Shown here: piece by piece, positions 18,842-22,780 of the stretch | How positions within the stretch are numbered: position 1 is the first letter of the stretch | Layout: each line of letters begins with the position of its first letter | Source: a virus | DNA: 24,769 nucleotides | Strand: one strand, 5' to 3' | IMG/VR virus record: IMGVR_UViG_3300034104_003960 | Location: 1 to 24,769 of that record | Notes under the pieces: model-generated | What the model was told of the DNA's origin: nothing | Databases searched by the model: none | The model's input: only the letters and a program-made list of their open reading frames with translations | Position numbers and translations under genes: made by a program

Positions 18842-19131
18842 TCGACTATCTTCTCAAATTCCCAGACCGCGCCACCGCAGTCCAGTTCGGACTAGCCAAC
18901 GGATTTGCTATCATCGACGACGAAGGCAACGAGCAAATCACCCTTGCGTCCCATGAGTATGCGCTTTGCATCGTCGGTGAGCACAACGGCGATGGGCAAT
19001 GGTGGGTGCTGTTCCGCGATCTGGTGGGCATCCCGATTCCCGCAGGCGGCGAGCAGTTTATTTTCTGGGCTTCCACCTCCGGCGAACAACGCCCTACCGA
19101 CGAATCCACACCTAACATCTTCTGGTCATGA
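18838..19131 (+). CDS. Small protein downstream of the tail fibre
   Basis: This 97-residue protein opens MIDYLLKFPDRATAVQFGLANGFAIIDDEG and ends GEQFIFWASTSGEQRPTDESTPNIFWS. This kind of short Trp-rich protein often follows fibre genes and may help fibre folding or attachment, but I cannot assign a family. Translation is coupled at both ends by 4-base overlaps (18838-18841 and 19128-19131). Confidence 0.65.
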   Translation: MIDYLLKFPDRATAVQFGLANGFAIIDDEGNEQITLASHEYALCIVGEHNGDGQWWVLFRDLVGIPIPAGGEQFIFWASTSGEQRPTDESTPNIFWS

Positions 19132-19349
19132 TCGAACTCCCCATCGCATGGATTCTTGGCACGATCGGCACGCTTTCGGGCGCAGTCGCAACCTTGGCCG
19201 CGCTCATGTGGAACTTCATGAAGTCACGCCTCGAAGCGCAGGATCGAGTGATCAACGCCCAGAGCGCGACGATCGAAAAACTCCAAGGCGAAGTCGAGCG
19301 CATGGCCGCCGGATGCGGTGTCATTGAGTGCCACTGGAAACGCCGTTGA
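19128..19349 (+). CDS. Small membrane protein, candidate inner-membrane spanin or lysis accessory
   Basis: This 73-residue protein has one N-terminal membrane segment (residues about 5-30, LPIAWILGTIGTLSGAVATLAALMWNFM). A charged coiled-coil-like end follows (KSRLEAQDRVINAQSATIEKLQGEVERM), with two Cys near the C-terminus. An N-terminal anchor plus coiled coil is the plan of inner-membrane spanins, and it sits just before a holin-like and a lipoprotein gene. It could also be a holin accessory. The role rests on topology and position only. Confidence 0.6.
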   Translation: MIELPIAWILGTIGTLSGAVATLAALMWNFMKSRLEAQDRVINAQSATIEKLQGEVERMAAGCGVIECHWKRR

Positions 19350-19377
19350 TTTTCTAACACCGAACCCAACCCAAACC

Positions 19378-19584
19378 ATGACACCCGAACAAAGCACACT
19401 CCGCCTCGTCCTCTATGTCCTCATCGCCGTCGTCTCCGCCGGAAGCGCGGGACTCGCGACGATCGACTTCGCTGATGCGAAACAAACTATCGGCTTCGCG
19501 CTTGGCCTGCTCGGCACCGCGCTGACGACCGCCCGCAGCTACATCGACACCTCCGAAAAAACTGTCTATCGTGATGAACTCTGA
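19378..19584 (+). CDS. Putative holin, two membrane segments
   Basis: This 68-residue protein has two hydrophobic segments (about residues 9-28, RLVLYVLIAVVSAGSAGLATI, and about 34-52, IGFALGLLGTALTTARSYI) and a short charged tail. Size, topology and position in the lysis cluster fit a small class II-like holin, which would form holes in the inner membrane at the set lysis time. The ATG at 19378 has an A/C-rich leader (CACCGAACCCAACCCAAACC). An in-frame GTG at 19318 would overlap the previous gene and is unlikely. Confidence 0.65.
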   Translation: MTPEQSTLRLVLYVLIAVVSAGSAGLATIDFADAKQTIGFALGLLGTALTTARSYIDTSEKTVYRDEL

Positions 19585-19759
19585 AACCAAATCCGACCGA
19601 GTCGGCCTCATCTGGGCGCTCATCGCCTCGCTGCTCATCTGGGCAGCCGTCGCCGTGATGACCTCCTGCACCCTACGGGTCAACCCGGATGGCAGCAAAG
19701 ATGCCACCATCGACGCTCCCGCCGCTCTCCGCGTGCTGGAGATCATCGCCGAAAAATAA
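19574..19759 (+). CDS. Small lipoprotein, outer spanin candidate
   Basis: This 61-residue protein has an N-terminal hydrophobic signal-like segment (VGLIWALIASLLIWAAVAVMTSC). The Cys in MTSC is the candidate lipidated residue, followed by a short mature part (TLRVNPDGSKDATIDAPAALRVLEIIAEK). The lipobox is not perfect, since small residues are expected just before Cys and Met is less usual at -3. Small lipoproteins next to holin and lysin genes are often outer-membrane spanins, here paired perhaps with the protein at 19128-19349. It overlaps the end of the holin-like gene by 11 bases. A GTG at 19571 is an alternative start. Confidence 0.6.
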   Translation: MNSETKSDRVGLIWALIASLLIWAAVAVMTSCTLRVNPDGSKDATIDAPAALRVLEIIAEK

Positions 19760-19766
19760 CTGACCC

Positions 19767-20330
19767 ATGAACAAGCCGCGAGCCAAACAGTTTGCGGTCA
19801 TGGCCGCAGCGGTCAAGGTGTGGGTCAAAGCCTATCCCGACGAACTGCTGCCGCCGATGTTCGTGGTCGGAATCCGCGGCTACTATCGCGACACCATGGG
19901 AGCCGCTGGCAAAAACGATCGAGGCATCTATGACGATGCGATTTTCGTCGTCGGACCCGAAACCTTTGCCGCCTTCAATGCGAACACCGACCCGAGCCGT
20001 CATCGCCCAGGCATTGCCTCACTGATTTCCGGCGTCCATCCGTACAAGCCCGGCAACCACGGCATCAGTCGCCCCGGTGGTGGCTATCCTGCCTTCCGCC
20101 CGAACACCAAAGGCGAAGCCTTGCCAGTCATGCGCGACGGCATGGACGGCATCAAGCAAGGCATCGCCATCAACATCCACAAAGGCGGCTACAAAGGCAC
20201 AAGCTCGCTCGGCTGCCAGACGATCCCACCCGCGCAATGGGATGCGTTCTACCTACTCACCCGCAGCGAGATGAAGAAGGCGAACCAAAAGGGTTTCGAG
20301 TACATCCTCTGCGACGGGCCTATCGTTTAA
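19767..20330 (+). CDS. Endolysin candidate with L,D-transpeptidase-like active site
   Basis: This 187-residue protein contains AINIHKGGYKGTSSLGCQTI (134-153). It has His138, Ser147, Gly149 and Cys150 in the H-x(8)-SxGC arrangement of L,D-transpeptidase (YkuD-like) catalytic sites. Upstream are long segments such as PPMFVVGIRGYYRDTMG and DDAIFVVGPETFAAFNANTDPS. It lies directly after the holin and lipoprotein genes, where the lysin belongs, and no lysozyme or amidase gene is seen elsewhere. Phage lysins of this type would attack peptidoglycan cross-links, perhaps by hydrolysis. The substrate is not shown by sequence. No signal peptide is obvious, so release probably depends on the holin. Confidence 0.7.
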   Translation: MNKPRAKQFAVMAAAVKVWVKAYPDELLPPMFVVGIRGYYRDTMGAAGKNDRGIYDDAIFVVGPETFAAFNANTDPSRHRPGIASLISGVHPYKPGNHGISRPGGGYPAFRPNTKGEALPVMRDGMDGIKQGIAINIHKGGYKGTSSLGCQTIPPAQWDAFYLLTRSEMKKANQKGFEYILCDGPIV

Positions 20331-20344
20331 CACCACCGCCAAGC

Positions 20345-21076
20345 ATGGCCTACAAAAAGTTCATAGTAGCCGCCGACAACCATGGCGGTCTGGTCTGCGA
20401 GGCAGCGAAGAAGAAATTTCTCGCGTTCGCCGACGATTGGAAGCCGCACCATCGGATTCACCTTGGCGATCTGTGGGATTTCTCACCCCTGCGCCGTGGG
20501 GCATCGCCCGAGGAAAAAGCCGACGGCATCTCGGATGACTACCAATGCGGCCTCGATTTTCTCGACGCCTTCCGCCCGAACTTTCTCACGCTCGGCAACC
20601 ATGACGATCGGATCTGGATGCACTCGACGAAGTGCTCGGACGGCATGCTCCGCGAACATTGTGCGAAGCTCGCTCAAGCCTCGGAGGATGAGTTCAAAAA
20701 GCGCAAGATCGCATGGGTGCCGTATCACGTCGGCAAGTACCTGCGCATGCCCGAGGGGGGACCGAAGCTGATCCATGGCTTCCGCGCCACCATGTACCCG
20801 GCTAAGGCGCATTTCGAGAACTGGGGCGCCTGCCTGCACGGCCACACCCACAAGCCCGATGTCTACACCGCCCGCCACATCGATGGCGAGGCGAGCTTTT
20901 CCGTCGGCTGCCTTGCTGACATCGATCAACTCTCCTACGCCGACCGCACGCCCGCCAAGCTCGCATGGCGAAACGGCTGGCTCTACGGCATCATCAACGA
21001 TCGCACCGGCGCATGGCAGGCTTGGCATGTGATCAAGGAAGGAACCACTTGGATCTCGCCGATGGGCATTTTATGA
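20345..21076 (+). CDS. Metallophosphoesterase (calcineurin-like)
   Basis: This 243-residue protein has the full set of family motifs: DNH at 11-13, GDLWD at 41-45, GNHDD at 84-88, His144 (IHG), and HGHTH at 165-169. It should bind two metal ions and cut phosphomonoesters or phosphodiesters. The substrate is unknown; nucleotides, nucleic acid or modified host molecules are possible. Start ATG 20345 follows a TAACACC leader. A further upstream frame would overlap the lysin gene by 94 bases and is not needed. It sits between the lysin and integrase regions and shares a 4-base overlap with the next gene, so it may be a late or lysogeny-related accessory. Confidence 0.88.
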   Translation: MAYKKFIVAADNHGGLVCEAAKKKFLAFADDWKPHHRIHLGDLWDFSPLRRGASPEEKADGISDDYQCGLDFLDAFRPNFLTLGNHDDRIWMHSTKCSDGMLREHCAKLAQASEDEFKKRKIAWVPYHVGKYLRMPEGGPKLIHGFRATMYPAKAHFENWGACLHGHTHKPDVYTARHIDGEASFSVGCLADIDQLSYADRTPAKLAWRNGWLYGIINDRTGAWQAWHVIKEGTTWISPMGIL

Positions 21077-21369: not shown

Positions 21370-22467
21370 CTATTCAATCACACAAAAAGGTGGCAAATAA
21401 ACCGATTCGCAATCGCACATCCCGAAATAAGCCAACCCATCCGCCTGCGTCACCGCCCGCCGGTAGTGCCTGAATAACGTCGAGCTGCCAGCCGTGTGAC
21501 CCATCGCCGCCTTGGCCTTCGCCTCATCAGTCGCCGCGAGGTAGTGGGAGGCAAACGAATGCCGGAGAATGTCCTGCTCGCCAGCAATGCCAGCCGCCTT
21601 CCTGATCCGTTGCCAAGCTCGCCGCCAACCCGCAGGCAGCACCGGCCCCTCGGTAGGATGACCGACCAGCTCCGCCCGCAGCCTCGGCGTCAGCGGAATG
21701 TGCCGGTCGCTGCCGGTCTTCGATGTCGCAGGCGCAACGTAGATTTCCTTCGCTCCCACGGCCTCCCAGTCAAGCCGGGCGATCTCTCCGCTCTCCGCGT
21801 CCGGTCGGATGCCCGCAAACGCCAACAACGCCACCACACGGCGCTCCTCGACCGACTGGCAATGACCGAGCACCTTCTCGACCTCCGCCAGTGTGAGGAT
21901 CTTGATCTCACTCGATTTACGATGCCGCTCGCGGTAGTTCAACACGGCGAGGATGCGCGTTGTCCGCATATCGATCGTCGCACGGGAGAGTTTCCGATCT
22001 TCGACCAGGGCTTTTTCAATGACACCCCGGTCGATCACCCCGCAGGGCTTTGCCAAAAAACCTTTTGGAACCCACCGCAGCATACGATCCATGTCCTGCC
22101 GGTAGCGTTTCGACCAGCGACCTTCGCCATCGAGAACCGCGCGATCATACCGCTGCAAGAATGTTTCCTGCGCGCCCGAGGTCGCCATTTGCTTCGCGAC
22201 GATCTTCGCCGCCTCGACCAGTCCAACGCCGGTACCTTCGAGGATGCTGATGGCCTCAGTCGCCTGCAAAGCGATCGCGAGAGGTAGCGCCGATCCACGG
22301 ACCCCCGAGGCGTATTGTGACCTGAGCTTGCCCGCGTATCGATTCGCCTCGGACTCCGTGCGGAAGTATTTTTTATGCCGCTTTCCATCGGCGGCCATGC
22401 TCTTCGGGATATTTACCCGCCACCCTTGAGGCGTCTTGAACGGTTTGATCTCAGCTACGCGCGGCAT
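21370..22467 (-). CDS. int: Tyrosine-recombinase integrase
   Basis: This 365-residue integrase would join attP to a host attB. Catalytic residues seen are Arg221 (FAGIRPDAESGEIARLDW), Lys250 (TSKTGSDRHIPL), Arg302 and His303 (DILRHSFASHYLA), His324 (AMGHTAGSSTLF) and nucleophile Tyr335 (RHYRRA). The usual first His of the HxxRH box is replaced by Asp299. I recall similar replacements in integrases of the Verrucomicrobiota/Planctomycetota group. The N-terminus has an arm-binding-like segment (QGWRVNIPKSMAADGKRHKKYFRTESEANRYAGKL). It is read leftward from 22467, away from the attP site 80 bases upstream. Upstream on the coding strand is AAGGTGCAGGCAAG before the ATG. Confidence 0.95.
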   Translation of the reverse strand: MPRVAEIKPFKTPQGWRVNIPKSMAADGKRHKKYFRTESEANRYAGKLRSQYASGVRGSALPLAIALQATEAISILEGTGVGLVEAAKIVAKQMATSGAQETFLQRYDRAVLDGEGRWSKRYRQDMDRMLRWVPKGFLAKPCGVIDRGVIEKALVEDRKLSRATIDMRTTRILAVLNYRERHRKSSEIKILTLAEVEKVLGHCQSVEERRVVALLAFAGIRPDAESGEIARLDWEAVGAKEIYVAPATSKTGSDRHIPLTPRLRAELVGHPTEGPVLPAGWRRAWQRIRKAAGIAGEQDILRHSFASHYLAATDEAKAKAAMGHTAGSSTLFRHYRRAVTQADGLAYFGMCDCESVYLPPFCVIE

Positions 22468-22505
22468 CTTGCCTGCACCTTATGGCCCTTTCGTGCTTTC
22501 TCAAG

Positions 22506-22532
22506 TTTCTTCTTTTTCCCTTTTTGCCCTCT
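22506..22532. other. Pyrimidine tract between integrase and attP
   Basis: An unbroken 20-base pyrimidine run (22506-22525, T-rich) is followed by G and six more pyrimidines. In the reverse direction it is a purine-rich tract in the integrase leader (GGGAAAAAGAAGAAA). It may bend DNA or carry integrase or host-factor sites next to the att core, or simply be part of the integrase promoter region. Confidence 0.35.
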
Positions 22533-22547
22533 AAAACCCTAATAAAA

Positions 22548-22592
22548 TGGAGCCGCTGGTCGGATTTGAACCGACGACCTGCTCATTACGAA
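22548..22592 (-). other. attP core: 3' 45 bases of tRNA-Thr(CGT)
   Basis: On the reverse strand the sequence runs from anticodon loop TTCGTAA (anticodon CGT, Thr) through half-stem TGAGC, variable loop AGGTC, T-stem GTCGG/CCGAC with loop TTCAAAT, and acceptor CAGCGGC, then T and CCA. That is tRNA positions 32-76. Sequence 5' of this (CTGTTC) does not pair with TGAGC, so the tRNA is broken at the anticodon loop. A tRNA 3' fragment 80 bases from an integrase start is the usual attachment core, used to restore the host tRNA after integration. Confidence 0.85.
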
Positions 22593-22780
22593 GAACAGGA
22601 GGACTCGCTATTCATCAAGGATTGCGGGCCTTGTCTTAAAAATGGACCCTTCAGGGACTTATCGCGGATCAAAACCATTTTCGTAGCCTCAACCAAATGA
22701 TCCGGCGAGCATTACCGATGCGGTAAAAGTGTGGACGATTGACGCCCAGCTCGCATACCTCCGCGCTGGATACATGGCGA

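Follow-up and report, generated by a model that had tools for sequence, protein, structure and literature searches.

A protein of predicted L,D-transpeptidase fold as the probable endolysin of a tailed phage

Characterised enzymes of the L,D-transpeptidase (YkuD) fold are mostly transpeptidases or carboxypeptidases, a record that counts against finding one of them in the role of an endolysin. The classical YkuD active-site motif has been given as HG(S/T), about ten residues, (S/T)xGC and then a hydrophobic-Arg pair after the cysteine (PMC12729407). Among the enzymes described with this fold, LdtCd2 has L,D-endopeptidase activity (PMC12729407) and Csd6 is a carboxypeptidase (PMC6403190), and LDTBcn is reported to cleave the L-Ala1-D-Glu2 bond, with endopeptidase products (PMC10864386). 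In the hydrolase DpaA (LdtF) of E. coli, Ala145, two residues after Cys143, replaces the arginine of many transpeptidases, and its authors contrast a single-entrance cleft with the groove of transpeptidases (PMC10653827). The type VI secretion system (T6SS) effector Tlde1a, with H121, S128 and C131, is toxic through carboxypeptidase and exchange activity (PMC9638812).

YkuD-type domains are already known in phage lytic proteins: the PhaLP collection holds 10 of them (PMC8310338), and one YkuD-type lytic protein is reported from gut phages (PMC13284279). The chemistry is therefore rare in a lysin and not new, so that the original prediction, which called it unusual, holds as to rarity but not as to precedent. 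The lysins in these two sources were Pfam or CDD matches to YkuD, whereas the family described here is invisible to Pfam and supplies the sole recognised lysin of its window. Because catalogues of endolysins are organised by known domain families, phages whose lysin family has no Pfam domain appear to be lysin-less. No paper recognised in the literature search, whose coverage left out most subscription papers, described this family as a lysin. Within the literature searched, novelty lies in the family itself, in its being distinct from YkuD, in its serving a phage group that has no other recognised lysin, and in the repeated joining of the domain to glycan-cleaving partners.

The window, meaning the whole stretch of DNA analysed here, is one entire virus-class IMG/VR record (IMGVR_UViG_3300034104_003960; 24,769 bases, record giving no completeness). 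It is a tailed-phage segment with terminase, portal, Clp-type head protease, tape measure and integrase. The lysin candidate is a single open frame running from ATG to TAA, and is present in the record as a sole copy. The gene and the codons of its predicted active site are as follows.

19767..20330 (+): predicted L,D-transpeptidase-fold lysin, 187 aa (PHROG 3000, structure model, fold search, hydropathy scan)
20178..20180 (+): His138 codon, predicted catalytic base; identical in 87/87 aligned sequences, on predicted strand 137-139
20205..20207 (+): Ser147 codon, serine of (S/T)xGC; identical in 87/87
20214..20216 (+): Cys150 codon, predicted nucleophile; identical in 87/87, directly before predicted strand 151-153
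20220..20222 (+): Thr152 codon, position Cys+2, where YkuD transpeptidases usually have Arg; Thr in 87/87

The hydropathy scan revealed no transmembrane segment in the 187-aa protein. PHROG 3000, a family of "unknown function", matches residues 33-183 at E 5.2e-10, which places the protein in that family, and a search of Pfam and NCBIfam gave nothing significant; sub-threshold Pfam matches, one of them to Colicin-E5 immunity protein (E 0.19), were treated as noise. Searched against PDB sequences, the single protein had no match and the family profile gave chance matches only (E 0.69 and above).

The fold was approached through an AlphaFold2 model made with the alignment of relatives (pLDDT 91.7, pTM 0.90). 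In this model His138 lies on a strand and Cys150 at the start of the next strand, with a helix thereafter, and this succession of strand-His, loop, Cys-strand and helix is the order of the YkuD fold. Foldseek against the PDB returned Csd6, an L,D-carboxypeptidase, as its single match below 1e-3 (E 5.9e-4, TM 0.41). When the top 994 PDB chains were aligned with VIA-align, 40 kept Z ≥ 2, and each of the 31 listed entries is an enzyme of the L,D-transpeptidase fold (Z 5.8-9.5). Best among the entries listed is the 1,3-L,D-transpeptidase LDTGo (8qzg; Z 9.5, rmsd 3.9, 159 residues), and these entries also include Bd1075 (8.6), Pgp2 (8.6), YkuD (8.4), DpaA (8ikr, 7.6) and Tlde1a (7uma, 6.8). The Z values are middling, and the argument therefore rests on the agreement among rows. 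Structural matches were also obtained to a marine-phage "Lysin" in BFVD (E 2.8e-8) and to a DUF5675 phage protein (E 3.4e-4, TM 0.47). On the strength of the model, the 187-aa protein is predicted to belong to the L,D-transpeptidase (YkuD) fold.

His138, Ser147 and Cys150 had been proposed to follow an HxxxxxxxxSxGC plan, and the translated sequence reads H-x8-S-x-G-C exactly at these positions. The classical motif HG(S/T)-X10-(S/T)XGC-hydrophobic-Arg does not fit the lysin, which reads H-x8-S-x-G-C-Q-T, with a shorter spacing of eight residues, Q-T after the cysteine and no arginine. The lysin motif is a short-spaced, Arg-less form of the classical one, and the assignment is settled by the fold prediction and not by the motif. 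Shuffling the lysin protein 20,000 times produced the exact motif in 5 cases, so that its presence is more than chance; by itself it is nevertheless weak, since the six frames of the window contain six looser strings of the form H-x(6-17)-[ST]-x-G-C. Beyond the three active-site residues and Thr152, G149 is also identical in 87/87 aligned relatives and Q151 in 84/87, and the further invariant residues (87/87) are R37, Y55, D56, D57, N73, P76, H98, G140 and F161. This conservation is partly by construction, because GCQT[IV][PH]PxQ served as one search seed. In a seed-free check of 82 domain ORFs from the 80 genome loci, 21 lacked the seed, and H-x8-S-x-G-C was present in 18 of these 21. Of the three that did not show it, L106 has a broken frame, L094 lies at a contig end, and L102 differs in spacing, though its His, Ser and Cys still align with those of the family. 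In L106, from Chitinophaga sedimenti, the domain copy is spread over two frames and is either broken or mis-sequenced. The predicted fold and the invariant His, Ser and Cys together support the original assignment of an L,D-transpeptidase-type active site.

Judged from profile comparisons, the lysin family is separate at the sequence level from YkuD, Tlde1 and DUF5675. Membership of YkuD (PF03734) was rejected, as the window protein gave no match at E 1 and 0/87 members matched at E 0.1. Membership of Tlde1 (PF10908) and of DUF5675 (PF18925) was rejected likewise, with 0/87 members matching at E 0.1 in each case and hhalign values of 0.4% (three Tlde1 sequences only) and 0.5% (nine DUF5675 sequences), respectively. 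Comparison of the family with YkuD proteins of host genomes by hhalign gave a probability of 1.0%, for a set of 20 loci minus L207 and L209 in which L203, at least, may be the wrong stretch; the yardstick in profile-profile comparison is the 91.9% reached by YkuD and Tlde1. What is shared with these groups lies elsewhere. The YkuD L,D-transpeptidases, of which LDTGo (8qzg) is the nearest solved structure, have in common with the lysin the predicted fold, the His and the (S/T)xGC Cys. Tlde1 T6SS effectors share the predicted fold, a short His-to-Cys spacing and, on the reading proposed here, antibacterial use of the fold, and DUF5675 shares phage occurrence and a short H...GC motif, but there is no profile match to either. 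DpaA shares the predicted fold and a Cys+2 residue other than Arg, which is Ala in DpaA and Thr in the lysin; DpaA, however, only releases wall-bound lipoprotein and is non-lytic, which counts against an Arg-less site implying lysis. PHROG 3000 matches as the same family but carries no function; the present analysis assigns it a predicted fold and active site, together with a probable role.

Among viral contigs the alignment search yielded 358 relatives, and among genome contigs 87; 80 from each set were kept. The annotated phage collection contained one relative, gp76 of Bdellovibrio phage phi1422 (40% identity; two accessions of the same phage), which matches PHROG 3000 at E 1.2e-35, and rhizobial plasmids contained 12. 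The closest genome relative, L027, is 91% identical and lies in a Verrucomicrobia metagenome assembly, so this sequence affinity suggests Verrucomicrobia as the host group of the phage. Within the phylum Verrucomicrobia the family was found in 5/288 genomes, a rate as expected for a mobile or prophage gene. In the tree, where the window is represented by L003 and kin, its close relatives belong to a clade made up of 30 viral and 8 bacterial rows (support 98/93). This clade is separate from the main fused clade (100/97; the tree label "GHfused" was set ahead of partner testing, and L103 is without a recognised partner) and from a third clade of mostly stand-alone bacterial proteins (96/84).

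Three small genes with membrane-type features precede the lysin gene on the same strand.

19128..19349 (+): 73-aa protein, tentatively a possible i-spanin; N-terminal transmembrane stretch, polar tail
19378..19584 (+): holin-like gene, 68 aa from an inner ATG; weak match to PHROG 565 "holin" (E 0.006), made on the longer frame 19318-19584
19574..19759 (+): small membrane/lipoprotein-like gene, 61 aa, o-spanin-like; transmembrane stretch, then ...MTSC

The lipoprotein-like gene stops 7 bases ahead of the lysin start. By tblastn it has a homologue in 22/37 related loci, and the holin-like gene has one in 18/37; the 73-aa protein, whose polar tail is probably a coiled-coil, has a homologue in 7/37. 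Comparison with Rz-like spanins gave noise-level values for both candidates (PHROG 4306, E 0.22, for the 61-aa gene; PHROG 89, E 0.13, for the 73-aa protein). The order holin-like, lipoprotein-like, lysin recurs among close relatives. In phi1422 no obvious holin was found beside gp76, and the phi1422 paper lists a "Lysin" without gene identity, which may be a gene other than gp76.

Several other features of these regions were recorded. Directly 3' of the lysin gene lies a metallophosphoesterase-like gene (20345-21076, +; PHROG 221, E 1.7e-9), kept in 8/37 loci. Three genes upstream of gp76, phi1422 gp73 (L227, 43436-44149) carries a CBM_5_12 carbohydrate-binding module, which is also found in one ORF of G002, a relative of the window phage. 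The integrase gene (21370-22467, -) adjoins a frame (22482-22700, +) reading RWSDLNRRPAHYE, a kind of string that often results when the 3' portion of a tRNA gene is translated. The region beside the integrase is likely an attachment site, though ARAGORN found no whole tRNA.

The candidate had been put forward as the only one in the window, with no lysozyme, amidase or peptidase alongside it. This was upheld: a Pfam scan of the other 36 window proteins found none, and no second known lysin family appeared in the window, in a 38,438-base relative or, for three families, in 29 related records. A different lysin could lie on sequence missing from the window record; the 48 ORFs of the 38,438-base relative include no lysozyme, amidase or peptidoglycan peptidase (the PHROG scan of this relative covering the best 25 of 40 families). 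PHROG 7, Amidase_2 and Peptidase_M15_3 each occurred in 0/29 related records above 30 kb, and the GH24 Pfam profile in 0/12, with positive controls in both cases; the related records are fragments or of unstated completeness, and profile scans could miss an unrecognised lysin family. For phi1422, 60 of 76 proteins were scanned, with no known lysin among the matches listed (one scan covering 25 of 30 families).

These observations bear on the reading of the protein as a true transpeptidase or D-amino-acid exchanger that modifies or seals the host peptidoglycan, be it for protection, for exclusion of other phages or for Tlde1-like poisoning, a separate and unrecognised gene then providing the lysin. 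Such a function would be in keeping with the best-aligned solved structures, which are mostly transpeptidases, and with Tlde1a, a protein of the same fold whose toxicity comes from carboxypeptidase and exchange activity (PMC9638812). We nonetheless consider it unlikely, given the position of the gene directly after the holin-like and lipoprotein-like genes, the lack of any other lysin family in the 36 + 48 proteins or, for three families, the 29 records, and the presence of Thr, not Arg, at Cys+2.

Bacterial relatives provide a further line of evidence. In 17/80 genome loci, and likewise in three proteins encoded on plasmids, the domain is part of a long chain that also carries a glycan-cleaving partner, recognised or probable. 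A GH24 phage lysozyme was found N-terminal of the domain by Pfam in 5 loci (L024-L026, L041, L066), and by similarity, again N-terminal, in 8 more (L037-L040, L043, L045, L046, L053); a glucosaminidase (GH73) is N-terminal of the domain in 2 loci (L036, L102). The verrucomicrobial proteins L052, L057, L063, L068 and L074 share a GH23/goose-lysozyme-like domain, and a caspase domain begins 3 of the 5. Modelling of the shared partner domain gave low confidence (pLDDT 60) and Foldseek found nothing below 1e-3 with the model; the leading VIA-align matches were nevertheless goose-type lysozymes and lytic transglycosylases (30 chains with Z ≥ 8, best 10.6). The alignment of the partner domain holds the strings QETAYF, GYGIFQ and AYNG, which resemble lytic-transglycosylase motifs, and L057 has a weak SLT match (E 0.01). 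The partner is a probable GH23-type domain. As several glycan-cleaving partners are joined to the domain, its substrate is argued to be peptidoglycan.

Some of these bacterial proteins have features of their own. L052, L057 and L063 each combine caspase, GH23-like and L,D-transpeptidase-like domains in a single polypeptide, and may act as toxins or in defence. On the rhizobial megaplasmids L024, L026 and L228, proteins combining GH24 with the L,D-transpeptidase-like domain are encoded near other enzyme genes, which in varying mixes include those for a DUF2235 phospholipase, a caspase or an S8 peptidase. A link to T6SS was considered because the rhizobial relatives adjoin a Tle1-like phospholipase gene; no VgrG, PAAR or T6SS annotation was found in the 20-kb flanks on two plasmids, for which the gene tables are incomplete.

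The fusions may also be taken as cooperation between activities, in which case the phage protein would be a Csd6-like L,D-carboxypeptidase or accessory hydrolase that trims stems, lysis needing a second, unrecognised enzyme. Besides the many long bacterial proteins that fuse the domain to a glycan-cleaving one, Csd6 itself, as the only Foldseek PDB match below 1e-3, would fit this explanation. In the phage and its near relatives, however, the domain stands alone, with no glycan-cleaving partner recognised, and we judge the explanation to be quite unlikely. That the protein is a virion-associated enzyme opening the wall at entry is very improbable, for although the gene lies close behind the tail genes, small membrane genes directly precede it, the protein is stand-alone in the phage, and close relatives retain the order holin-like, lipoprotein-like, lysin.

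The gene is, in our estimation, likely to encode the endolysin of the phage, a cysteine L,D-endopeptidase acting through Cys150. Its role as a lysin is supported by the lysis-type gene order, the lack of a transmembrane segment and the muramidase fusions of relatives. Hydrolysis is hinted at mainly because Cys+2 of the lysin is not Arg, as in the hydrolase DpaA, and we infer hydrolysis over transpeptidation from Thr in place of Arg at this position together with the lysis context. We further infer the bond cut, any fit of the enzyme to the peptidoglycan of the host, the holin and spanin roles and the host itself. In the mechanism envisaged, the holin-like protein, encoded two genes upstream of the lysin, would open the inner membrane, giving the soluble 187-aa enzyme access to the peptidoglycan. 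Cys150, with His138 as its activator and Ser147 keeping it in the short (S/T)xGC loop, would then attack an L-to-D peptide bond of the stem peptide to form a thioester that water releases. The target bond may lie in or next to cross-links, being either mDAP3-D-Ala4 of the donor stem or L-Ala1-D-Glu2, the latter modelled on the 1,3-LDT group, whose structure aligns best with the lysin. Repeated cleavage would unzip the wall, and the small lipoprotein/spanin-like partners would handle the outer membrane.

More tentatively, it is possible that the reading extends to the whole of this undescribed large LDT-fold family with no detectable YkuD sequence relation. The family would then be a dedicated lytic L,D-endopeptidase, serving as sole endolysin of one group of phages, those of Verrucomicrobia and others, and as an interchangeable module joined in bacteria to GH24, GH73 and GH23-like domains, in one clade behind a caspase. 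By analogy with LDTGo, the bond cut by the family could be L-Ala1-D-Glu2, whose cleavage would sever every stem.

If the family is lytic, a fold best known for building cross-links becomes one that destroys them, and Thr for Arg at Cys+2 would offer a testable difference for the switch between transpeptidase and hydrolase. Verrucomicrobia phages are little studied, and a lytic family would add a new catalytic module to the catalogues of lysins and antibacterial effectors, for hosts such as Verrucomicrobia.
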